A stretch of DNA of 64,000 nt from Natronococcus occultus SP4 (GTDB taxonomy: Archaea > Halobacteriota > Halobacteria > Halobacteriales > Natrialbaceae): assembly GCF_000328685.1 (NCBI RefSeq), contig NC_019974.1, positions 1,975,001-2,039,000 on the forward strand. The letters are read 5' to 3'. Shown here piece by piece: positions 35,509-46,540 of this stretch. Positions within the stretch are counted from its first letter, which is position 1. Each line of letters opens with the position of its first letter. Below the pieces are notes generated by a model that worked only from the letters and a program-made list of their open reading frames with translations, was not told the DNA's origin and did no database searches. A program made the translations under genes and the position numbers.

Positions 35509-35907
35509 ATGCGGATGGAACTGCGGGTGTGCAAACACTGCTACACCGGGGAGCACGGGAACGAACAGAAGACCGCGATCACGAAGGACATGGTCGATTG
35601 TGCCGAGGCGATCCGCGAGTACAAGGATCTCATCTCGCTGGACGCGGTGTACATCACCAAGGTCGAGGCCGGCGACGTCGGCGGCTCCGAGGAGCTGCCG
35701 ATCAACGTCGCAGGGATCGAGGACGACACGATCACGCTGCGGGACACCCAGCTCGTGATCGAGGACGAAGACGAGAGCGTCCTGGTCTACCCCGAGCCGG
35801 CGGACATCCTCGAGGTGTTGACCCGGAACCTCGATCAGATCAACGAGCGGACCCGCCAGGACGTCGTCGTCGACATCTCGGCCGACAGCGCGGAACTGAT
35901 CACCTGA
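35509..35907 (+). CDS. Conserved hypothetical protein with an N-terminal CxxC
   Basis: The protein has 132 residues (ATG 35509; a second ATG at 35515 is also possible). It begins MRMELRVCKHCYTGEHG, has a central beta-rich stretch SLDAVYITKVEAGDVGGSEELPINVAGI, and a C-terminal helix ILEVLTRNLDQINERTRQD. The single CxxC with nearby His could bind zinc, possibly across a dimer. The product is acidic and soluble. I cannot assign a family. It is followed by a spacer with a long perfect palindrome. Confidence 0.75.
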   Translation: MRMELRVCKHCYTGEHGNEQKTAITKDMVDCAEAIREYKDLISLDAVYITKVEAGDVGGSEELPINVAGIEDDTITLRDTQLVIEDEDESVLVYPEPADILEVLTRNLDQINERTRQDVVVDISADSAELIT

Positions 35908-36059: not shown

Positions 36060-38195
36060 ATGAACGAGGGTGCGTTTGTCTGTTCCTGTGCTGGGACCTG
36101 CGATATCGATCTCGAGGAGGCGCGGGAGGGGATCGAGGACGTCGAGGTTGCTGCGAGCTCGCAGCTGCTCTGCCAGGACAAGCTCGAGGCGTTCGAACAG
36201 GTAATAGAGGAGTACGAACTCGACGAGATGGTCGTCACCTGTCCCGAGGCGAAAGCCCAGGAGAAAATCGAGGCCGCGGCCGAGCGACAGGGGCTCCGGG
36301 CCGACAACGTCGAGTTCGTCGATCAGCGCGAGGGAGCGGGGTGGGTCCACGAGCGCGAGGCCGCGACCGCCAAGACCTCGCGGCTGGTCAACGCGGCCAC
36401 CGCCGGCCAGGAGGCCGACCGACGGCCGCGGTCGAGCATTCACCGGGCCGGTTACGAGGTGGTCGTCGTCGGCGATCCGAGCACGGCCGCGGCGATCGCC
36501 GACTCCGCGGACGTGACGCTGCTCGCGAACGGCGAGGAGCTGGCGACCGCCGACGCCGACCTCGAGGACGTCGACGTCGAGCGGGGCCGCGTCGTCGACG
36601 TCGACGGCAAGTACGGCGAGTTCGAGCTGACCGTCGAGGCGCTCGTGACCGACGACTGCATCTCCTGTATGAAATGCGTCCACGAGGGGCCCGACGGGAT
36701 GGTGACCCGCTACCCGGTCGACATCGATCCCGAGGCCCCGGTCGGGGAGTGGGTGACGGTCTGTCCGACCGACGCCATCGAGATGGAGGGCGTCGAGCGG
36801 ACGATCGAGTGCGATCAGGTGATCTACCCCGAGGGGGAGGGGCCGATCGGCGGCCAGCGGGGCTACCACACGGGCCCGGTCGACGCGGCGACGGTCAACG
36901 AGGTCGAACGGCTGCTCGGCGGGTTCGAGGGGATCGACTTCCTGGATCTGGAGATGGAGGTCTGTGCCGCCGGGACGTCCGGCGAGATGGGCTGTAACGA
37001 GTGCGTCGAGGCCTGTCCCCACGACGCGGTCGAGCGGGCCGCGATCGACGAGGTCGAGTTCCACCTCGACAGCTGCCAGAACTGCGGGGCCTGTACCAGC
37101 GCCTGTCCGACCGGTGCGACCCAGCTCCAGGAGCCGAGCAACGAGCGCCTCGCCCGCGAGGTCGAGGCGCTGCTGGCGCCGACGGGCGACGACGGCGGGT
37201 TCGTCAGCGGACTCCTCGGGGGTTCGAGCGCGAGCATCGAGACGCCGATGATCGCGTTCGTCTGTTCGGAGCGCGCCCAGAACGCGCTCCAGGAGTACGG
37301 CCGACTGGCGGCCGCGGGGCGGGCCGATCTCGAGTATCCCCCGATCCTGCCCGTCTCGGTCAACTGCACCGACACCGTCGGCGAGGCCCACGTCCTCCAC
37401 GCGCTGGCGGCCGGCGCCGACGGCGTCGCGATCGTCGGCTGCGGCGGGAGCTGTCTCCACTCCGGCCCGGATCCGAAAGCCGAGCTCGTCGAGCGGGTCA
37501 ACCGGGCGACGACCGATCTGGGACTGGGCGAGCGAGTCTCCTTCTTCGCGCCCAACCCCGACGAGCCCGAGGCGTTCGTCGAGGAGCTCTCCGAGTTCGC
37601 CGTCACGGAACTCGAGGCGTCGCCGATCCCCGCCGGCGAGCACGAGGCGACGGGCGAGATCGACGACCCCGGGCGGGAGAATCCACCGTTCGACAGCCAC
37701 GGCTGGACCCTCGAGAGCGTCCGGGCGATCCTCGACCACGTCGAGCCCGAGCGGGAGGTGATCCGCGGGCTGAAGGACTTCGGGATCGTCGACGTCGCGG
37801 ACGGCTGTACGCTGACCCCGACCTGTACGAGCTACTGTCCGACCGACGCGCTCCGGCGCACGGAGAACGGCCTCGATTTCAACCACGAGCGCTGTGTCAA
37901 CTGCGGGCTCTGCGAGGACGTCTGCGTCGAGGGCGTCATCAGCGTCAAGGACGGGCTCGACCTGTCGCTGCTGCCGGAGAACAAGGCGACGGAGCCGGAC
38001 CCCGCCTGGGAGCGGGTGTACGAGGGCTCGATGCTGTCGTGTGCCGGCTGCGGCCAGGAGTTCACCAGCGAGGCGACCGCCGACGCGATCGAGGACCAGA
38101 TCGGCGACGTCGTCACCGACCTCGCTCCCGACACCGAGGAGAGCATCTTCCAGTACTGTCCGGAGTGTCGCGCGCGGCTGCTCCACGACGTGTAG
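36060..38195 (+). CDS. Multi-cluster iron-sulfur protein: HdrA-like N-terminus, ferredoxins, MvhD-like domain
   Basis: The protein has 711 residues. Residues 1-115 resemble the N-terminal domain of HdrA (Cys8, Cys10, Cys14; LLCQ; VVTCPEAK; WVHEREAATAKTSRLVNAA). There is no FAD domain. Ferredoxin-type Cys groups follow: CISCMKC with a distant CPTD, then CNECVEACP and CQNCGACTSACP (about 200-355). An MvhD-like domain (about 390-520) contains FVCSE, VNCTD, GADGVAIVGCGGSCLHSG and a final AFVEEL helix. Another ferredoxin (CTSYCP, CVNCGLCEDVC) and a C-terminal zinc ribbon (CAGCG, CPEC) complete it. It is probably a cytoplasmic electron-transfer adaptor. A TATA-like element 26 nt upstream fits this start. 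Confidence 0.85.
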   Translation: MNEGAFVCSCAGTCDIDLEEAREGIEDVEVAASSQLLCQDKLEAFEQVIEEYELDEMVVTCPEAKAQEKIEAAAERQGLRADNVEFVDQREGAGWVHEREAATAKTSRLVNAATAGQEADRRPRSSIHRAGYEVVVVGDPSTAAAIADSADVTLLANGEELATADADLEDVDVERGRVVDVDGKYGEFELTVEALVTDDCISCMKCVHEGPDGMVTRYPVDIDPEAPVGEWVTVCPTDAIEMEGVERTIECDQVIYPEGEGPIGGQRGYHTGPVDAATVNEVERLLGGFEGIDFLDLEMEVCAAGTSGEMGCNECVEACPHDAVERAAIDEVEFHLDSCQNCGACTSACPTGATQLQEPSNERLAREVEALLAPTGDDGGFVSGLLGGSSASIETPMIAFVCSERAQNALQEYGRLAAAGRADLEYPPILPVSVNCTDTVGEAHVLHALAAGADGVAIVGCGGSCLHSGPDPKAELVERVNRATTDLGLGERVSFFAPNPDEPEAFVEELSEFAVTELEASPIPAGEHEATGEIDDPGRENPPFDSHGWTLESVRAILDHVEPEREVIRGLKDFGIVDVADGCTLTPTCTSYCPTDALRRTENGLDFNHERCVNCGLCEDVCVEGVISVKDGLDLSLLPENKATEPDPAWERVYEGSMLSCAGCGQEFTSEATADAIEDQIGDVVTDLAPDTEESIFQYCPECRARLLHDV

Positions 38196-38237: not shown

Positions 38238-38984
38238 TCACTCGGGGTGTTCGATCGTCCAGTCGGCCTTCTCGGCGGCCGTCGCAAGCGGGACGAACTC
38301 CCAGCCGGCCTCGTCGGCGATCCACGCCTCGCTCTCGGCGCCGACGACGACCATCCGCTCGGCGTAGAACATCGAGTCGGGCGTGACGTCCGCGAGTCGC
38401 TCAGCCGGACCAGTCTCGGAACCGCCGAAGAAGTCGAGTTCGATCCGCTCGTCGCGCTGGAACTTCCGGATCGCCGGCGTCGAGACCGTCCCGACGATCC
38501 CGATCCAGTCGGCCCACCCCCTGGCGTCGCCGACGACGAACTGCGGGTCCTCGAGCCGGTTGATCGCCTGGTAGGTGAACGCGAGGGTCATGTCGTCGGC
38601 CGACGTCGCCTCGCCGTGATCGGTCGTCCGGGGCGTCGAGTCGGTCGACGCCGTCCCGTCCGTTTCCGTTTCGGCCTCCGACGCCGCGCTCGTACTCCCG
38701 CCGGCGCCGCCTCCGCCGCGATCCTCCGGGACGCCGACCGGCCCCTCCGTGGCTCCCGGGACCTGTGGCACGCGTCGTGGCGCCTCAGTGTCGTCGCCGT
38801 CGTCCTCGGCGTCGCTCCCGGGAGACGCTTCGGTCGTCGCCTCCGAGGACGTCTCCCCCCAAACGGGGTCGGCCTCGTTCTCCGGATCTCCCTCGCCCTG
38901 CCAGAGCCAGTCGCCGTAGGTGGCCGCCTCGTCGTCCTCGTCCTCGCCGACGTCCATCTCGTCGAGGTCGATACTGTCGGTCAT
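38238..38984 (-). CDS. DUF7124-like haloarchaeal protein (long paralogue)
   Basis: The protein has 248 residues. The first 125 are an acidic, Ser/Thr/Gly/Glu-rich disordered region with YGDWLWQGEGD near the start. The C-terminal domain begins DMTLAFTYQAINRLEDP, continues GDARGWADWIGIVG and FFGGSE, and ends AAEKADWTIEHPE. These blocks match the 18220 protein in order and spacing. Its ATG overlaps the stop of a possible 56-residue ORF by 4 nt. It is convergent with the iron-sulfur gene, 42 bp away. Function is unknown. Confidence 0.82.
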   Translation of the reverse strand: MTDSIDLDEMDVGEDEDDEAATYGDWLWQGEGDPENEADPVWGETSSEATTEASPGSDAEDDGDDTEAPRRVPQVPGATEGPVGVPEDRGGGGAGGSTSAASEAETETDGTASTDSTPRTTDHGEATSADDMTLAFTYQAINRLEDPQFVVGDARGWADWIGIVGTVSTPAIRKFQRDERIELDFFGGSETGPAERLADVTPDSMFYAERMVVVGAESEAWIADEAGWEFVPLATAAEKADWTIEHPE

Positions 38985-39151: not shown

Positions 39152-39253
39152 CGTCAGTAGTTCGCGGTGTAGAATTGGTAAATGCCACGGTGTCTGTGCT
39201 GCTGTTGGAACGTTGAACATATGGCTACCCAGAAGCGTAAACACTCAAGAGTA

Positions 39254-39296
39254 TTTAATAACCGATTCAGGTTATTCCGATTCAAAGGATTAATAA
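39254..39296 (+). promoter_or_regulatory. Promoter/operator of the formate-dehydrogenase-like operon
   Basis: A perfect inverted repeat AATAACC-GATTCA-GGTTATT spans 39257-39276 and overlaps a TATA-like TTTAATA (39254-39260). A second TATA-like TTAATAA (39290-39296) lies 24 nt before the ATG at 39320, so it is the better TATA box, giving a leaderless mRNA. CCGATTCA occurs twice (39262-39269 and 39277-39284). The repeat would sit just upstream of the used promoter, where activators or repressors bind in haloarchaea. Confidence 0.5.
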
Positions 39297-39319
39297 CTCG
39301 AGATTACTTTCACCGACCT

Positions 39320-42310
39320 ATGTCTCGGTCATCACTCGACCTTGATCGGCGGGGGTTCCTGAAAGCCGGTGCTGCGGGGACCCTCGCAACGGCGGTCGGG
39401 GGGCGAACGCTTCTTCAGCAGCGAGCAGCCGCGGACGAAGACGACGTCGTCGACCCCGACGCAGCGGATGAGCTGGTGAAGACTGTCTGTACACACTGTT
39501 CGGTCGGCTGTGGGGTACAGATGGCCGTCGATGAGGGGGCTGTCGTCGGACAGGAAACCTGGGACGACAACCCGGTCAATCAGGGCGGGCTCTGCTCGAA
39601 AGGTGCCTCGTTGACCCAGTCGGTCAACTCCGACCGACGGCTGAAGAAGCCGCTGAAACTCGAGGACGGCGAATGGATCCAGATGGAGTGGGACGAGATC
39701 CTCGAGGAGATCACCGGTCGGCTCAACGAGATCCGCGAGGACGTCGGCCCCCACGGTACGTTCTGGGCGGGGTCGGCGAAACACAGCAACGAGGCCGCCT
39801 ACCTGATCCGGAAACTCTCCGCGCTCTACGGCACGAACAACATCGACCACCAGGCGCGGATCTGTCACTCGACGACCGTCGAGGGGATCGCGAACACCTG
39901 GGGTGTCGGCGCCATGACGAACAACTCGAACGACATGGCGAACGTCGACGTCAACCTCATTATCGGCCACAACCCCCTCGAGAGCCATCCCGTCGCCTGG
40001 CAGTACTTCCAGGAGGCCCAGGAACGGGGCGGGAAACACATCGTCGCCGAACCGCGTTACACCAAGACCGCGGCCGCGGCCGACGACTACTACCAGTTCC
40101 GCTCGGGAACGGACGTCGCGCTCATCTACGGGCTGATCTATCACATCGTCTACAACCTCGAGGCCCACGACGAGGAGTTCATCGAGAGCCGCGTGATGGT
40201 CGACACCTGGGAGGAGTTCCGCGACGACGTCCTCCCCGAGTACGACCTCGAGACCGTCTCCGACATCTGTGGGATCTCCGAGGACGAACTGCGGGAGCTC
40301 GCCGAGGAGCTCGCCGACGCCGAGGTGAGCTGCGTCGAGTGGGCAATGGGCGGCACCCAGCACAACAACGCGACGGGCAACGTCCGGGCGTACGCGATGT
40401 TGAACCTGACGCTCGGCCACGCCGCCCAGTCCGGCGGCGGCACGCCGATCTTCCGGGGTCACGACAACGTCCAGGGCGCAACCGACCTCGGTGTCGACTC
40501 GGGCAACACCCCCGGCTACTACGGGCTCGGCCAGGACGCCTGGGAGCACTGGGCCAACGTCTGGACCGAGACCGAAAGCACCTCCGGGGAGATCAGCTAC
40601 GACGAGCTCCACGACCGGTTCCACTCGACGGAGCTGATGGAGAAACGCGGGTTTGCGGTCTCGCGCTGGTACGAGGGCGTCCTCGACGAGGACTGGGAGA
40701 TCTACCAGCCCGATCCGCTTCGGGCGGCGGTCTTCTGGGGCCACGGGCTCGCGTCGCTCACCGAGTACAAGAAGGTGCGACGCGCGGTCAACGAGCTGGA
40801 TTTCATCGTCAACATCGACGTCTTCCCGAACCAGGTCGCCGAACTCACCGACAGCGACACCGACGTCTACATGCTGCCGGCCTCGACCAACATCGAGGAG
40901 GCCGGCAGCGTCGTCAACACCGGCCGTCAGATCCAGTGGCGGTCCAAAGCGATCGAGCCCCGCCACGACTCCAAGGAAGACTGGAAGCTGCTGTGTGAGT
41001 TCGCCGACCACCTCGGCTTCGGCGAGCACTTCGACTACGACGAGGTCGAGGACGTCACGCGGGAGATCAACCTCGGCGTCCGATCGGTCGGATACGTGGG
41101 GCACACGCCCGAACGGCTGAAGCTCCACCAGGAGAACACCGAGCTGTTCAGCGCGGAGGACCTGCAGGCGGATCTCGACGAGGACCACGAGCTGTACGAC
41201 GAGCTCGACGGCGACTTCTACGGGCTGCCGTGGCCGTGCTGGCACGAGGACCACCCCGGGACGCCGATCCTCTACGACGCCTCGCTACACCCCTCCGAGG
41301 GCGGGATGGACTTCCGCGCCCGGTGGTGGGGCGAGGAGGACCCGGACGTCGATCCCGAGGATCAGCTTCGGGATCCGTTCGAGCCGGACTGGTGGGACGG
41401 CGAGATCGAGGGCGTCCCCCAGTACCCCATGTTCTCGACGGTGCTTCCGGACCCCGAGAACCCGGCCGCAGCGACGATCCCGATCGAGGGCGCGTTCGAC
41501 GAGGGGACGTCGGTCGCCGACGTCGCCCAGGCACTGGCCGACGAGGGGTACGATATCGACCTCGAGGAGTACGCGGAGTTCGACAACCCACAGCCCGACG
41601 CCCCGTGGGGCCGCGGCCGGGCCCGGATGAAGGCCTGGAACCTCGAGGACGAGATCCCCGTCCACCGCGAGCCCGCGGTGACGCCCCGGCCCGACCTCGT
41701 CGACGACTACCCCTGTAACGAGCGCGTCGAGGATCACTGGCGGCTCGAACTCGACAACGCGGGCGTCCAGCAGGACAACATCGACGCGGTCGAGGAGCTC
41801 GCCGACGCCGGCGACGCCGACCCGCTGGTCCTCACTTCCGGACGACAGGTCGAACACAAGGGTGCCGGCGCGGTGACCCGCAGCACGCAGGGAACCGCAT
41901 CGCGAGCGCCGATGATGTACCTCGAGATCCATCCCGACGTCGCCGAGAACGACCTCGGCGGCGTCGAGGAGGGCGACTGGATCGTCGTCACGACCCCGCA
42001 CGCCGAGATGGTCATTCAGGCCAGACCGACGGGTCGGGTCCCCGAGGACCACGCGTTCGCCCCGTACCACTGGAGCGGAATCCTCGAGGGCGAATCGATG
42101 ATGGACAGCGTCCCGGACGGGATGGAGCCGCTGGTGATCGGCGAAACGATCAACAGCGGGACCGCCCCCGCGTACGACCGCGAGACCCAGATGCAGGAGA
42201 CGAAGACGACGCTGTGTAACGTCCGGGTAGCCGAGGACGACGAGATCCCCGAGCTGACGGACCAGCAGCTCCAGTGGCAGGAACAGCGCATCAACCGTCA
42301 CAAGCGATAG
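39320..42310 (+). CDS. Tat-exported molybdopterin oxidoreductase, formate dehydrogenase-N-like catalytic subunit
   Basis: The protein has 996 residues. It starts with a twin-arginine signal (DRRGFLKAG, residues 9-17). The [4Fe-4S] ligands are Cys57, Cys60, Cys64 (CTHCSVGC) and Cys92. Cys182-His183 in ARICHSTTV replaces the selenocysteine-His of E. coli FdnG. The block RGHDNVQGATDLG is characteristic of the FDH-N clade. A C-terminal molybdopterin dinucleotide domain contains LVLTSGRQVEHKG. Acidic insertions near 640-800 are haloarchaeal. ATG 39320 is chosen because family and signal start there, although the frame is open to 39182. It probably oxidises formate outside the membrane. The stop is 10 nt before the Fe-S subunit. 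Confidence 0.9.
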   Translation: MSRSSLDLDRRGFLKAGAAGTLATAVGGRTLLQQRAAADEDDVVDPDAADELVKTVCTHCSVGCGVQMAVDEGAVVGQETWDDNPVNQGGLCSKGASLTQSVNSDRRLKKPLKLEDGEWIQMEWDEILEEITGRLNEIREDVGPHGTFWAGSAKHSNEAAYLIRKLSALYGTNNIDHQARICHSTTVEGIANTWGVGAMTNNSNDMANVDVNLIIGHNPLESHPVAWQYFQEAQERGGKHIVAEPRYTKTAAAADDYYQFRSGTDVALIYGLIYHIVYNLEAHDEEFIESRVMVDTWEEFRDDVLPEYDLETVSDICGISEDELRELAEELADAEVSCVEWAMGGTQHNNATGNVRAYAMLNLTLGHAAQSGGGTPIFRGHDNVQGATDLGVDSGNTPGYYGLGQDAWEHWANVWTETESTSGEISYDELHDRFHSTELMEKRGFAVSRWYEGVLDEDWEIYQPDPLRAAVFWGHGLASLTEYKKVRRAVNELDFIVNIDVFPNQVAELTDSDTDVYMLPASTNIEEAGSVVNTGRQIQWRSKAIEPRHDSKEDWKLLCEFADHLGFGEHFDYDEVEDVTREINLGVRSVGYVGHTPERLKLHQENTELFSAEDLQADLDEDHELYDELDGDFYGLPWPCWHEDHPGTPILYDASLHPSEGGMDFRARWWGEEDPDVDPEDQLRDPFEPDWWDGEIEGVPQYPMFSTVLPDPENPAAATIPIEGAFDEGTSVADVAQALADEGYDIDLEEYAEFDNPQPDAPWGRGRARMKAWNLEDEIPVHREPAVTPRPDLVDDYPCNERVEDHWRLELDNAGVQQDNIDAVEELADAGDADPLVLTSGRQVEHKGAGAVTRSTQGTASRAPMMYLEIHPDVAENDLGGVEEGDWIVVTTPHAEMVIQARPTGRVPEDHAFAPYHWSGILEGESMMDSVPDGMEPLVIGETINSGTAPAYDRETQMQETKTTLCNVRVAEDDEIPELTDQQLQWQEQRINRHKR

Positions 42311-42320
42311 GTGAGAGTAC

Positions 42321-42923
42321 ATGAGCACACAAGAATCTAACAGCGGACCGGCACGAGTAATTCCGAACTGGGAGTCCTGTATCGACTGTGGCGCCTGCGA
42401 GGTCGCCTGTCAGCGCACCTGGGATCTCCCGCCGGAGAGCGACCGAATCCAGGTCGTCGCGATCGGTCACGGGACCGACGAGGAGGCGAACAAACCGATG
42501 CAGTGTTACAACTGCGCCGAAGCACCCTGCGTCGAGGTCTGTCCGACCGAGGCGCTGCGCATCCGCGACAGCGGGAGCGTCCGCGTCGACGCGGACATGT
42601 GCATTGGCTGTCACTACTGCGGCGTCGGCTGTCCGTTCGGCGCGCCCCAGTATCCCGACGCGGAAGTGCCGGAGGCCGAGGAGACCGAGCCGATGGGATC
42701 CCGGAGCAACGGCCTGATGGACAAGTGTACGACCTGCGAGCCGCGCCAGGAGGAGGGTCTCGAGCCCGCCTGTTCCTCGGAGTGTCCGACCGACGCCTTG
42801 CTGTTTGGCACCCCCGAGCAGCTCTCGGAGAAGCTCGACGAGGACGGCGTCTCGACGCCGTTCTCGGAGGAGGGCGCCGAGATCGTCTTCGGCGAGGACG
42901 CGGACGAGATCATGGGGGACTGA
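42321..42923 (+). CDS. Fe-S subunit with four [4Fe-4S] clusters (FdnH/DmsB-like)
   Basis: The protein has 200 residues. The cysteine groups are CIDCGACEVAC, CYNCAEAPCVEVCP, CIGCHYCGVGCP, and CTTC with CSSECP. Together these provide ligands for four cubane clusters, as in FdnH, DmsB and PsrB. It has no signal peptide, so it is probably exported in complex with the Tat-bearing catalytic subunit. The C-terminal 40 residues are acidic and lack the membrane helix of FdnH. Start supported by GGTGAGAG upstream. It transfers electrons from the catalytic subunit to the membrane anchor. Confidence 0.94.
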   Translation: MSTQESNSGPARVIPNWESCIDCGACEVACQRTWDLPPESDRIQVVAIGHGTDEEANKPMQCYNCAEAPCVEVCPTEALRIRDSGSVRVDADMCIGCHYCGVGCPFGAPQYPDAEVPEAEETEPMGSRSNGLMDKCTTCEPRQEEGLEPACSSECPTDALLFGTPEQLSEKLDEDGVSTPFSEEGAEIVFGEDADEIMGD

Positions 42924-42929
42924 CCACCG

Positions 42930-44036
42930 ATGCCAACCGAAGTCACGTTCGATCTTCCGTACAGTCAGTGGAACTGGCAGATCGGCGTCTACATCGCGCT
43001 GATCGGGATCGCCAGCGGCGCGTACCTGACGGGGTACGTCGCGGACCTGCTGGCCTCGCGGCGGGACGCCCGAGGCCACGGCGACGTCGCGAAGTACGGG
43101 TATCTCGCCGGACTGCTCGGACTGGCGATCGGGCCGCCGATCCTGCTGTCGCACCTCGCGACGCCGTTCCGGGCGATGCTGGTGCCGCTGACGATGACGA
43201 ACTTCGACTCGTGGATGACCATCGGCGCGTACCTGCTCGGCGGGCTCGGGCTGGGAGCGTTTCTGATGTTCGCCTGGGTCGCGTTCGGCCGAAACCGACC
43301 GCACGCGCCCGATCGGACCGGCTCTGGTACCGTCGTGGCCGACGGCGGCACGGAGCGTGGCCCCGCCAGAGCCGCGACGAGCGACGCGAACGGTGGACTG
43401 CGCGGCGTCGCGGATCGGGTCGGCCTGCTCGACCTGGTCGACTCGATCGCGGACGCCACCCGTCCCTCGGAGACGGTCCGGCTCGCGATCGGGGGCGTGT
43501 TCTCGCTCGCCGCGGCCGGCGTGCTGATCTACTCGGCGATGGCGTACGGCTCCGGGATGACCGAGCGGGTCCCGCTCTGGGACAAGACGTTCCTGCTACC
43601 GCTCCAGATCTTCGGCGGGCTGGGCGTCGGACTGGCCGCTGCGGTCGGGCTGGCTGCGCTGGCTAACCGCAACCCCGGCCGCGCCGTCCAGCAGTACTCG
43701 CTGGCGGTCGCCGGGCTGCTGGCGGCAGCGCTGGCGATGGTCGTCGCGACGGTCACGCTGCTGCCCGAGCAGCTTCCCGCCGCGGAGCCGGCAGTCGAGA
43801 ACCTGCTCACCACGTACGCCACGCTGTTCGTCGGCGTGGCCGTGATCGGCGGACTGGTCGTGCCGATCCTGCTGTCGGTCGGCGCGGTCGTCGGCCAGCG
43901 ACGCGGCGCGCTCTCGCCGACGGCGGCGACGGCGTCGTACGTCACCGTCGCCCTCCTCGCGGTAGTCGGGAAGGTCGCGCTGGCGCTGACCTACCTGCTC
44001 GCCGCCGAGTTCGAGCCGCTCATCCTCCCGCTGTAG
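42930..44036 (+). CDS. NrfD/PsrC-like membrane anchor subunit
   Basis: The protein has 368 residues with eight to nine predicted membrane helices. The N-terminus YSQWNWQIGVYIALIGIASGAYLTGYVADL and the block LATPFRAMLVPLTMTNFDSWMTIGAYLLG match NrfD/PsrC. A hydrophilic 60-residue insertion (about 125-185) separates the two halves. It begins 6 nt after the Fe-S gene. NrfD subunits contain no heme and exchange electrons with quinones. The combination with an FDH-N-type catalytic subunit replaces the cytochrome b (FdnI) of the E. coli enzyme. Confidence 0.9.
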   Translation: MPTEVTFDLPYSQWNWQIGVYIALIGIASGAYLTGYVADLLASRRDARGHGDVAKYGYLAGLLGLAIGPPILLSHLATPFRAMLVPLTMTNFDSWMTIGAYLLGGLGLGAFLMFAWVAFGRNRPHAPDRTGSGTVVADGGTERGPARAATSDANGGLRGVADRVGLLDLVDSIADATRPSETVRLAIGGVFSLAAAGVLIYSAMAYGSGMTERVPLWDKTFLLPLQIFGGLGVGLAAAVGLAALANRNPGRAVQQYSLAVAGLLAAALAMVVATVTLLPEQLPAAEPAVENLLTTYATLFVGVAVIGGLVVPILLSVGAVVGQRRGALSPTAATASYVTVALLAVVGKVALALTYLLAAEFEPLILPL

Positions 44037-44084: not shown

Positions 44085-44720
44085 ATGGAACGGACGAACG
44101 ATCCCACGACCGAGCTCGCGGATCTGTACGCGTTTCTCTCGGGCGTTCTGGCGGACCCGCCCGACGAGGCTGCCGTCGAACGGCTCGCCGACGAGCCGCT
44201 TCCGCGGCAGGCGTCGCCGCAGGCGCTCGACACCGGTTTCCAGCTGCTCGACAAGTGGCGGGCCAGGGTCGACGATCCCGAGGACGCGGCGACGGAGCTG
44301 AATCGGGTCCACACCCGACTGTTCGTCGGACCGCGACCGCGGATGCAGGTCCACGAGTCCTGGTACGCCGACGACTACCTCGGCGAGCCGCTCGCGGCCG
44401 TCAAAAGCTCCTACCGCGATCTCGGCATCCGGCCGTCGACGGAGCTCCGCGAGGAGGCCGACCACGCCGCCGTCGAGCTGGCAGCCCTCGAGATCCTGGC
44501 CCGCGAGAGTAACGACGAGTACCGACGCGCCTTCCTGCAGGCCCACGGCTGGTGGCTGCGGGAGCTGGCCCGGGACATCCAGGAGATGGCCGACGACCCC
44601 TTCTACGAGGGCGTCGGCTGGCTGCTCGAGGGCGTCTTTCAGGCCGACACCTACCTGCTCGGTCTCGACCCCGACGACCTCTCGCCGGGCTACGAGCAGC
44701 TCTCGACGAACGGCGAGTAG
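44085..44720 (+). CDS. TorD/DmsD-family molybdoenzyme chaperone
   Basis: The protein has 211 residues, all helical. The family pattern is visible in ELADLYAFLSGVLADPPDE, ELNRVHTRLFVGPRPRMQVHESWY (TorD-like YxxLFxG and E(x)xY) and DHAAVELAALEILAR (the usual DHxxxEL). TorD-type chaperones bind the Tat signal and assist cofactor insertion. It lies 48 bp behind the NrfD-like gene, so it is the last gene of the operon and presumably serves the 39320 protein. Cytoplasmic. Confidence 0.92.
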   Translation: MERTNDPTTELADLYAFLSGVLADPPDEAAVERLADEPLPRQASPQALDTGFQLLDKWRARVDDPEDAATELNRVHTRLFVGPRPRMQVHESWYADDYLGEPLAAVKSSYRDLGIRPSTELREEADHAAVELAALEILARESNDEYRRAFLQAHGWWLRELARDIQEMADDPFYEGVGWLLEGVFQADTYLLGLDPDDLSPGYEQLSTNGE

Positions 44721-44770: not shown

Positions 44771-46510
44771 CTACAGCTCCTCGAGACCGAGCCGTTCGAG
44801 GGTTCGGCCGGTCGGGACGCCGTCGTCCCATCCCCGACGCTCGTAGTACCGCTCGAGGGTCTCCTCGAAGCCGGCCGCGTCGATCGCCGCGCCGTCGTTG
44901 GGGCCGCCCTCGAGCGGTTCCGTGAGTCGCTCGGGGAGCGTATCGTCCTCGCGGGAAAAGCCCTCGCGACAGTTGAAGAGTCGAATCAGCGTCCAGACGC
45001 GCTCGCCGACCCGGCGTAACTCCTCGGGATCGTAGTCGCGGCCGATCGCTGCGAGCCAGTCCGCGCCCAGCGTCCTCGAGAGCGCCTCCCCGAAGAAGTC
45101 GTCGGCGATCAGGCTCCAGAGGACGGCCCGGCGGTCCTGCTCGGCGATCACCGCGTCCACGCGGTCGACGGTGCTCCAGTCGGTCCCACCCAGCGCCTCG
45201 ACCTCGACCGGGCGCGCGCGACGGTGGCAGGCGCCCCGATCGCTGGTCGCGTAGGCAAGCGCCATCGCGGACGCGCCGCGGGGATCGTAGGCGGGTAGCG
45301 CCATCCCCTTCACCGAGGGAATCAGGTCGTCACCGCCGAACTCGGCCGCGGCCGCGTCGACGCCGTCTGCCAGCGCGTCACCGAGCGGACTCGAGCGGCG
45401 AGCGATCTCCTCGATCAGCTCGCGGGCGCCGTCCTCGTCGCCGAACTCGAGCTCGCGGTCGATCAACCCCGTCTCGCTCGCGCGGATCGCCCAGGCGACG
45501 GCGTTGCCCCCAGAGATCACGTCAAGCGCCAGCCGATCGCAGACCGAGCCCAGCGTCGCAACGGCGTCAAAATCGTCGATTCCCAGGCCCGCACCCAGCG
45601 AGATCGGCGTCGACCCCCGCGGGACGCTCTCGCCGTCCTCGCTCTCGACCTGGAACCCGCCGGGAACCGGGTCGTCGGCGCGCTCGCGGTCGTGAGCGGC
45701 GTCGCGAACGGCCTCGATACCGATCCCCTCGGCGCCGTCGAACTGACCCTCCTGCCAGCCGCGGGTCGGGAGAACGCCGACCTCGTTGGCGAAATCGATC
45801 GTCTCGAGGGTCTCGCTGGCGGCCTGCCAGCGCCCGGTGTCGTCGTCGGCAAACGCCACCTCGTACCGACGGTGGAGCTTCCGGAGGTCATCGTCGAGCG
45901 TCGGCGGATCGTCGTGAGCGACCAGCGCCTTCAGCCGCTTCGCACCCATCACCGCGCCCGCGCCGCCGCGGCCGGCGTGGTGGTCGCCGCCCCCGGAGGC
46001 GATCGTCGCGTAGGAGACACCCTGTTCTCCGGCGGGACCGATGCAGGCGACCGCGGCCTCGTCCGCCCGCTCGGCGGTCTCGCGGGCGTCGAGCCCCCAC
46101 CAGTCCTCGGCCGGCTCGATCGAGACCTCGCCGTCGGCAACCTCGAGCCTGACGGGGCGCTCGGCCCGTCCGGAGACGAGGACGCCGACGTTGTCGCCGA
46201 GCGAGCCCGCGAGCCGGCCGGCCATCTCCCCGCCCGCGTAGGAGTCGAGGAAGGCGCCGGTCAGGGGCGACTTGGTGACGACGACGTAGCGTTGCTCGCC
46301 GGGGAGGAACCCGGTCAGCGGCCCCGTGAGAAAGAGCAGGACGTTCTCGTCGCCAAGCGGGTCCGCGCCTGGCTCGAGCTCCTCGTAGAGGTAGCGAGCC
46401 CCCAGCCCCTTCCCGCCGACGAAGTCGTTGCGCCACGACTCGGGTACCGGTTCGTATGTGACCGACTCGGCCGCGAGGTCGACGCGGACGAGAGACTCCC
46501 CCGTTTCCAT
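44771..46510 (-). CDS. Aldehyde:ferredoxin oxidoreductase family protein lacking the [4Fe-4S] cysteines
   Basis: The protein has 579 residues from ATG 46510; an in-frame GTG at 46519 is less likely given the TATA-like element. Family blocks are FVGGKGLGARYLYEEL, AGRGGAGAVMGAKRLKALV, and LPAYDPRGASAMALAYATSDRGACH. The tungstopterin-binding fold therefore seems intact. The CxxCxxxC of known AORs should fall at residues 278-285, which read ADDPVPGG. The fourth cysteine (SLGxC) should fall near 466-472, which reads SLIADDF. No substitute cysteines are nearby. The cofactor may be bound without a cluster. It is convergent with torD. Confidence 0.88.
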   Translation of the reverse strand: METGESLVRVDLAAESVTYEPVPESWRNDFVGGKGLGARYLYEELEPGADPLGDENVLLFLTGPLTGFLPGEQRYVVVTKSPLTGAFLDSYAGGEMAGRLAGSLGDNVGVLVSGRAERPVRLEVADGEVSIEPAEDWWGLDARETAERADEAAVACIGPAGEQGVSYATIASGGGDHHAGRGGAGAVMGAKRLKALVAHDDPPTLDDDLRKLHRRYEVAFADDDTGRWQAASETLETIDFANEVGVLPTRGWQEGQFDGAEGIGIEAVRDAAHDRERADDPVPGGFQVESEDGESVPRGSTPISLGAGLGIDDFDAVATLGSVCDRLALDVISGGNAVAWAIRASETGLIDRELEFGDEDGARELIEEIARRSSPLGDALADGVDAAAAEFGGDDLIPSVKGMALPAYDPRGASAMALAYATSDRGACHRRARPVEVEALGGTDWSTVDRVDAVIAEQDRRAVLWSLIADDFFGEALSRTLGADWLAAIGRDYDPEELRRVGERVWTLIRLFNCREGFSREDDTLPERLTEPLEGGPNDGAAIDAAGFEETLERYYERRGWDDGVPTGRTLERLGLEEL

Positions 46511-46540
46511 GCAGTCCACTGATCGTAACCGCCGAACGAT

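Follow-up and report, generated by a model that had tools for sequence, protein, structure and literature searches.

The window is a stretch of 64,000 nucleotides of the Natronococcus occultus SP4 genome, and the features found at the locus are collected in Table 1. The gene under study, here called c0, encodes a protein of 711 aa with 33 cysteines (ORF translation). It is present as a single copy in the genome, and Natronococcus genomes carry copies at 92-94% identity. The gene stands alone 1 kb upstream of a formate dehydrogenase (FDH) operon whose catalytic subunit carries a Tat signal. A first-pass annotation had placed c0 next to an FDH-like operon; the proximity is confirmed, with the qualification that an oppositely oriented DUF7124 gene intervenes. 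The torD gene of the window belongs to the FDH operon, 5.9 kb from c0. A second FdhA-FdhB-NrfD operon was observed in the same genome (G000:C1:3243709-3246699; locus L150, 7964-12697), with an FdhA 85% identical to that of the window; it contains neither TorD nor c0. CCG-domain matches of the HdrB/HdrC type are located elsewhere in the genome, not beside c0.

Table 1. Genes of the c0 locus and domains of the c0 protein (positions in the window)
Feature	Position	Strand	Evidence and remarks
132-aa conserved CxxC protein	35509..35907	+	no Pfam/NCBIfam match; neighbour in 29/40 haloarchaeal loci
c0 gene	36060..38195	+	711-aa eroded HdrA - ferredoxin - MvhD - ferredoxin/zinc-ribbon fusion
HdrA N-terminal domain	36060..36407	+	residues 1-116; C8, C10, C14, C38, C61
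HdrA thioredoxin-reductase-like FAD-domain remnant	36435..36983	+	residues ~126-308; hhalign collinear; profile vs 9sfi_A
Inserted ferredoxin, single [4Fe-4S] ligand set	36657..36764	+	C200, C203, C206, C235
HdrA C-terminal-type 2[4Fe-4S] ferredoxin	36963..37106	+	C302, C312, C315, C319, C339, C342, C345, C349; Pfam Fer4_7
MvhD/FlpD domain	37251..37601	+	residues 398-514; C402, C436, C461, C465; PF02662 E 2.8e-19
Second 2[4Fe-4S] ferredoxin	37806..37925	+	C583, T586, C589, C593, C612, C615, C618, C622
Zinc-ribbon-type CxxC/CxxC tail	38040..38168	+	C661, C664, C700, C703
DUF7124 protein	38238..38984	-	PF23439 E 2e-38
FDH catalytic subunit, Tat-signal	39182..42310	+	TIGR01591 E 1e-131 (below cut-off); DRRGFLKAG; Cys-His active-site motif RICHST
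FDH iron-sulfur subunit	42321..42923	+	FDH3_beta NF038355 E 2e-34
NrfD-like membrane subunit	42930..44036	+	TIGR03148 E 4e-5 only
TorD-family chaperone	44085..44720	+	PF02613 E 8e-17; NF003442 E 1e-7
Aldehyde:ferredoxin oxidoreductase (AOR)-family tungsten protein	44771..46519	-	PF01314/PF02730

The domain composition of c0 was established by several types of searches. Residues 4-116 align with residues 7-128 of HdrA 5odc_A (phmmer), and a profile built from 14 sequences of the c0 family matched HdrA chains among the solved structures at E 2e-37, its first domain covering profile positions 3-213. Residues 1-137 alone gave no match in Pfam, and the HdrA N-terminal assignment rests instead on these phmmer and profile searches. 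The HdrA2 model NF040770 matched over residues 310-514. The ferredoxin and zinc-ribbon tail matched HycF, subunit 6 of formate hydrogenlyase (7z0s_F, E 1.9e-17, profile 558-678), and this HycF-like module also matched NF009053. The fusion announced by the first-pass annotation, i.e. an HdrA-like N-terminus, ferredoxin-type cysteine groups, an MvhD-like domain and a C-terminal zinc ribbon on a single chain of 711 residues, was recovered, and both the HdrA and the MvhD (PF02662) segments matched significantly. AlphaFold2 models were of low confidence (pLDDT 47.5 for the full protein with 11 sequences, 48.4 for residues 1-313); HdrA 5odh_A ranked first when the low-confidence model of residues 1-313 was submitted to Foldseek (E 5e-10, TM 0.26), a ranking which lends mild support to the kinship with HdrA. 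A sequence scan of c0 revealed neither a Tat motif nor a transmembrane stretch; no DNA-binding or signalling domain was found with Pfam and NCBIfam, and there was no match to anti-phage defence.

HdrA is a key electron-bifurcating protein of methanogens, and its FAD domain had been considered absent from c0. Alignment of the c0 family with HdrA by hhalign is collinear over positions ~1-310 (probability 100%, E 3.5e-39), and the family profile aligns with HdrA 9sfi_A over 5-258. The Rossmann start reads VIGGGVSG in HdrA and VVGDPST in c0, where VGDPST occupies the GxGxxG position. This motif is lost in 76 of 78 homologues; the two that retain it (L112 and L113) look, in their sequences, like an intermediate. 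The second half of the FAD domain is deleted in the hhalign comparison: the HdrA region past CxGSRD has no counterpart in c0, whose remnant passes directly into the C-terminal-type ferredoxin. The complete FAD domain of HdrA, with GxGxxG and second half, is therefore not found in c0. The alignments support the loss of a working flavin site, as had been proposed, and the domain is better described as eroded than as cleanly missing, since a remnant still aligns with HdrA. The best reading of the sequences is that c0 descends from an HdrA-MvhD fusion which lost its flavin site, so that the electron bifurcation of its ancestor would no longer be possible. In the literature, a fusion of HdrA and MvhD is termed type Ia HdrA (PMC12054007). 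In a survey of HdrA paralogues of ANME archaea the FAD residues are apparently retained in all of them (PMC9012536), and a flavin-less branch therefore appears to be undescribed there.

HdrA2, or type Ia HdrA, shares with c0 the order HdrA-N, Rossmann remnant, inserted ferredoxin, C-terminal ferredoxin and MvhD. NF040770 matched c0 of the window at E 4e-24 and the L105 homologue at E 7e-62, with scores (84.6 and 209.6 bits respectively) far below the cut-off of 1100 bits; the NCBIfam model of HdrA gave 55.9 bits for c0, under its cut-off of 1400. In addition to the two losses in the flavin domain, c0 differs from HdrA2 by its extra HycF-like module and by neighbourhoods in which HdrB and HdrC were not recognised. 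In QmoB of sulfate reducers an HdrA-like part is likewise fused to an MvhD-like part, but, unlike c0, the Qmo proteins retain FAD and have a membrane subunit, QmoC, as partner. HycF/HyfH and c0 have in common a C-terminal 2[4Fe-4S] and CxxC/CxxC module aligned over ~120 residues; HycF, however, belongs to a membrane complex as one of its subunits, and hydrogenase genes of formate hydrogenlyase were not seen here.

The cysteines of c0 were compared in 78 homologues (54 haloarchaeal and 24 other), with an additional check of 15 sequences including six short forms. Every full-length homologue has C200/203/206/235, C302, C312-C349, C583/589/593, C612-C622, and the four zinc-ribbon cysteines C661/C664/C700/C703. 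The invariant parts of the family are the ferredoxins and the zinc ribbon, not the electron-entry clusters of HdrA and MvhD. C8, C10 and C38 of HdrA-N are present in 51-53 of the 54 haloarchaeal and in all 24 other homologues, and the 2Fe-2S cysteines of MvhD, C402/C436/C461/C465, are kept in 51 of 54 haloarchaeal homologues compared to 9-19 of the 24 others. Both sets are lost in what appears to be a Halodesulfurarchaeum-like lineage, and to judge from this pattern they are dispensable. The inserted ferredoxin contains 8 cysteines in every non-haloarchaeal homologue (24/24) and only 4 in every haloarchaeal one (54/54), the latter keeping the first three and the last cysteine, which together ligate a single cluster in ferredoxins of the 2[4Fe-4S] type. 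By its ligands, this module is a 2[4Fe-4S] ferredoxin minus one cluster, and the loss of the cluster explains the long gap after CISCMKC; the gap had been noticed before and is real, with a length of 28 residues (C206 to C235) rather than about 40. A cysteine occupies position 586 in 24/24 other homologues but in 3/54 haloarchaeal ones, most haloarchaea having a threonine. Because T586 replaces a conserved cysteine, the C583/T586/C589 site of c0 may hold a [3Fe-4S] cluster or none. As for C302, it either completes the ligand set of the next ferredoxin or is equivalent to the cysteine of HdrA CxGSRD. Short forms of 552-572 aa without the inserted ferredoxin, located beside TorD and a Tat-signal FDH, were observed in one family (f21, loci L155-L161).

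The neighbourhood of c0 was then examined at 83 distinct loci, the neighbours being classed by BLAST and selected Pfam searches. TorD belongs to a family of Tat proofreading chaperones. Its gene is the immediate same-strand neighbour of c0 in 62 of the 83 loci (55 downstream, 7 upstream), and 42 of the torD-c0 pairs overlap, many by 4 bases. An FDH or PhsA-like gene is present within the fetched stretch in 70 loci; truncated or misread pieces excepted, the FDH partners have a Tat-like RR motif near their start and a Cys-His active-site motif. Among the genes inspected, the c0 family is the one most tightly linked to torD and exported FDH. Additional genes in these blocks are mostly devoted to cofactor synthesis, maturation (sulfur and iron-sulfur supply) and Tat export, as illustrated by the orders FdhA-FdhB-x-cyt b-MobA-[c0]-TorD-x-cysteine desulfurase-FdhD (L145), FdhD-[c0]-TorD (L147) and PhsA-like-FeS-NrfD-TorD-[c0]-Mrp-MobA (L048), and by a cluster with TatA, two TatC and DmsC (L110). 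The membrane partner varies between loci (cytochrome b, NrfD or DmsC). One genome (G063) contains two c0 paralogues, each beside its own enzyme (L047, L048). HdrB and HdrC were not recognised among the profiled neighbours of the inspected loci. In one case (L123, 2188-10917), TorD is absent and the order is TatA-[c0]-small and large subunits of a Tat-exported [NiFe] hydrogenase-Hyp genes.

The first-pass annotation had suggested examining whether c0 is conserved with FDH or AOR genes. An AOR gene is indeed present in 29 of the 83 loci, all of them haloarchaeal, and AOR was found neither at PhsA-like loci nor at any non-haloarchaeal locus. The pairing recalls class II benzoyl-CoA reductase, in which HdrA/MvhD-like subunits work with AOR-type enzymes. 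The idea that c0 is a redox partner of the nearby AOR-family protein nevertheless seems very improbable and was set aside, AOR being restricted to haloarchaeal loci whereas the linkage to TorD and FDH is broader.

With FDH, the association is much closer. Profile A2 detected the c0 family in 62 of 393 genomes across the phylum and in 62 of 195 haloarchaeal genomes. Most matches cover the full profile, with a few fragments or short forms, and the gene structure is therefore not due to chance. The family spans Halobacteriota, and its members in archaeal families outside the haloarchaea are 23-35% identical over almost the full length. An FDH homologue is present in 60 of the 195 haloarchaeal genomes, and 59 of these 60 also carry the c0 family (59 of the 62 family-positive genomes), in counts that ignore shared ancestry; the conservation of the linkage across related genomes partly reflects such ancestry. 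The sole FDH-only genome (G010) contains FdhA, FdhB and TorD, and c0 was detected neither near FDH nor elsewhere in the genome, which indicates that c0 is not always needed. In the three family-only genomes (G016, G025, G037), c0 is instead accompanied by TorD, Mrp and a Tat enzyme of the PhsA/PsrA-like type. In a tree, the c0 copies from PhsA-type loci form one group, with long branches that leave deep placements unsure.

These data bear on the role of c0 with respect to FDH. It does not accompany every copy of the FDH structural genes (L150, G010), and the data fit a cytoplasmic accessory protein better than a subunit: the commonest partner is TorD, the richest blocks add genes of cofactor synthesis, maturation and export, c0 has no export signal, the membrane partner is variable, and the L150 operon lacks both c0 and TorD, as expected if both act in trans. 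We consider the chances about even that c0 is a dedicated cytoplasmic iron-sulfur maturation factor acting with TorD on Tat-exported molybdoenzymes, mostly respiratory FDH. TorD would hold the immature catalytic subunit of FDH by its Tat signal, and c0 would dock on the same precursor, where it would supply electrons or iron-sulfur clusters, or check that the clusters are in place, while clusters and molybdenum cofactor are being loaded and ahead of export of the folded enzyme. Domain composition, distribution, gene linkage, cysteine conservation and the loss of the flavin site are shown at the level of sequence; that c0 is cytoplasmic, binds TorD or FDH and takes part in maturation is what we infer. 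Gene linkage would look the same for a maturation factor as for a dedicated partner in electron transfer. Two observations go against maturation: the recognisable modules of c0 (HdrA, MvhD, HycF) all serve electron transfer in the characterised complexes that contain them, and no copy of c0 was detected in G010, which has FDH and TorD.

A serious rival is that c0 acts as a cytoplasmic electron conduit, since all of its modules carry electrons in known complexes (HdrA, MvhD, and HycF in formate hydrogenlyase). As a flavin-free relay, it would connect ferredoxin or another cytoplasmic carrier with the cytochrome b or NrfD subunit of membrane FDH. The position of c0 by a [NiFe] hydrogenase in one lineage, another low-potential donor enzyme, and the paralogues of G063, each with its own enzyme, are in line with this proposal. 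We regard it as rather unlikely. The catalytic partner is Tat-exported and c0 has no export or membrane signal, so that there is no obvious way for the two to exchange electrons directly across the membrane; c0 is missing from the second FDH operon in the N. occultus SP4 genome, the membrane partner changes from locus to locus, and HdrB/HdrC were not recognised in the inspected neighbourhoods. In addition, the presumed Halodesulfurarchaeum-like lineage, whose membrane FDH was detected in proteomes (PMC5437934), lacks the cysteines of both MvhD and HdrA-N. For Halodesulfurarchaeum, an FDH operon (HTSR_1573-1576) has been described and formate use demonstrated, in passages that do not mention a c0-type gene (PMC5437934). 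The suggestion of an unusual electron conduit in an aerobic-type haloarchaeon found little support here, in view of the occurrence of the family throughout Halobacteriota, the export of the partner FDH and the predominance of TorD as neighbour.

It could also be imagined that c0 is a redox or oxygen sensor that controls whether the enzyme is assembled or exported; labile clusters would give the signal, and the zinc ribbon would serve for interaction. The invariant zinc ribbon, the many clusters with varying ligand sets and the tight coupling to TorD would suit such a role, which we hold to be improbable: DNA-binding and signalling domains were not found with Pfam and NCBIfam, and a checkpoint role does not differ from a maturation role in what the sequence reveals.

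For the maturation reading, the closest functional precedent, by analogy, would be NapF, a cytosolic four-cluster ferredoxin needed in vitro for reconstitution of the NapA cluster and thought to work before Tat export (PMC10609526). Like NapF, c0 would be a cytosolic multi-[4Fe-4S] protein, and its gene is tied to a Tat-exported Mo-bisPGD enzyme and the chaperone of that enzyme. They differ in that NapF is a small ferredoxin with NapD as partner, whereas c0, with ~700 aa, includes parts related to HdrA and MvhD as well as a zinc ribbon, and has TorD as partner; the match to NapF is weak (TIGR00402 E 2e-17, below cut-off), was seen for the C-terminal ferredoxin of the L105 homologue alone and shows no homology beyond the ferredoxin fold. 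HydN and YsaA of E. coli are ferredoxin-like proteins needed for full FDH-H activity; rather than maturation, the authors of that study prefer alternative paths of electrons as the explanation (PMC6004506). As proposed here for c0, they affect FDH activity and were not found as subunits of a purified complex, but they are much smaller, HycB-like and associated with a cytoplasmic FDH, which makes them a looser precedent than NapF.

The possible role of c0 in maturation is of particular interest with respect to FdhD. FdhD was found in none of 37 haloarchaeal carriers of FDH or the c0 family sampled, compared to 13/13 other carriers, and is absent from the N. occultus SP4 genome. A published review points out that halobacteria often encode FDH in the absence of fdhD, the proteins involved being in question, and treats molybdenum-cofactor insertion and sulfuration of haloarchaeal FDH without FdhD as an open problem (PMC10609526). 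Given its linkage to torD and exported FDH, the tightest among the genes inspected, the c0 family is, together with TorD, an obvious candidate for this FdhD-less maturation. A plain replacement of FdhD by c0 was rejected, as FdhD-bearing archaea carry c0 too. A more comprehensive proposal can be made tentatively, with a probability clearly below even: a flavin-less descendant of HdrA would serve with TorD as iron-sulfur or redox maturation factor of Tat-exported molybdoenzymes and, in one lineage, of a [NiFe] hydrogenase, and in haloarchaea would be part of an FdhD-independent route to active FDH. No work on TorD, HdrA and formate dehydrogenase together in archaea was found among titles and abstracts of the open-access literature. 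The assembly of haloarchaeal FDH without FdhD has now a named candidate that can be knocked out, which, if the proposal is true, would exemplify an HdrA that has lost its flavin and may have been recruited to the assembly of enzymes.

Two minor observations concern the FDH clusters themselves. A DUF7405 (Dyp-peroxidase-like) protein (L062, 12980-14197; equivalents in L055, L057, L058, L061 and L063) is a conserved neighbour of the FDH cluster of several haloarchaea and is often accompanied by two small membrane proteins. In L119, L149 and L167, from some presumably ANME-1-like genomes, a second, shorter FdhA-like Tat protein (744-748 aa) is present beside FdhA.
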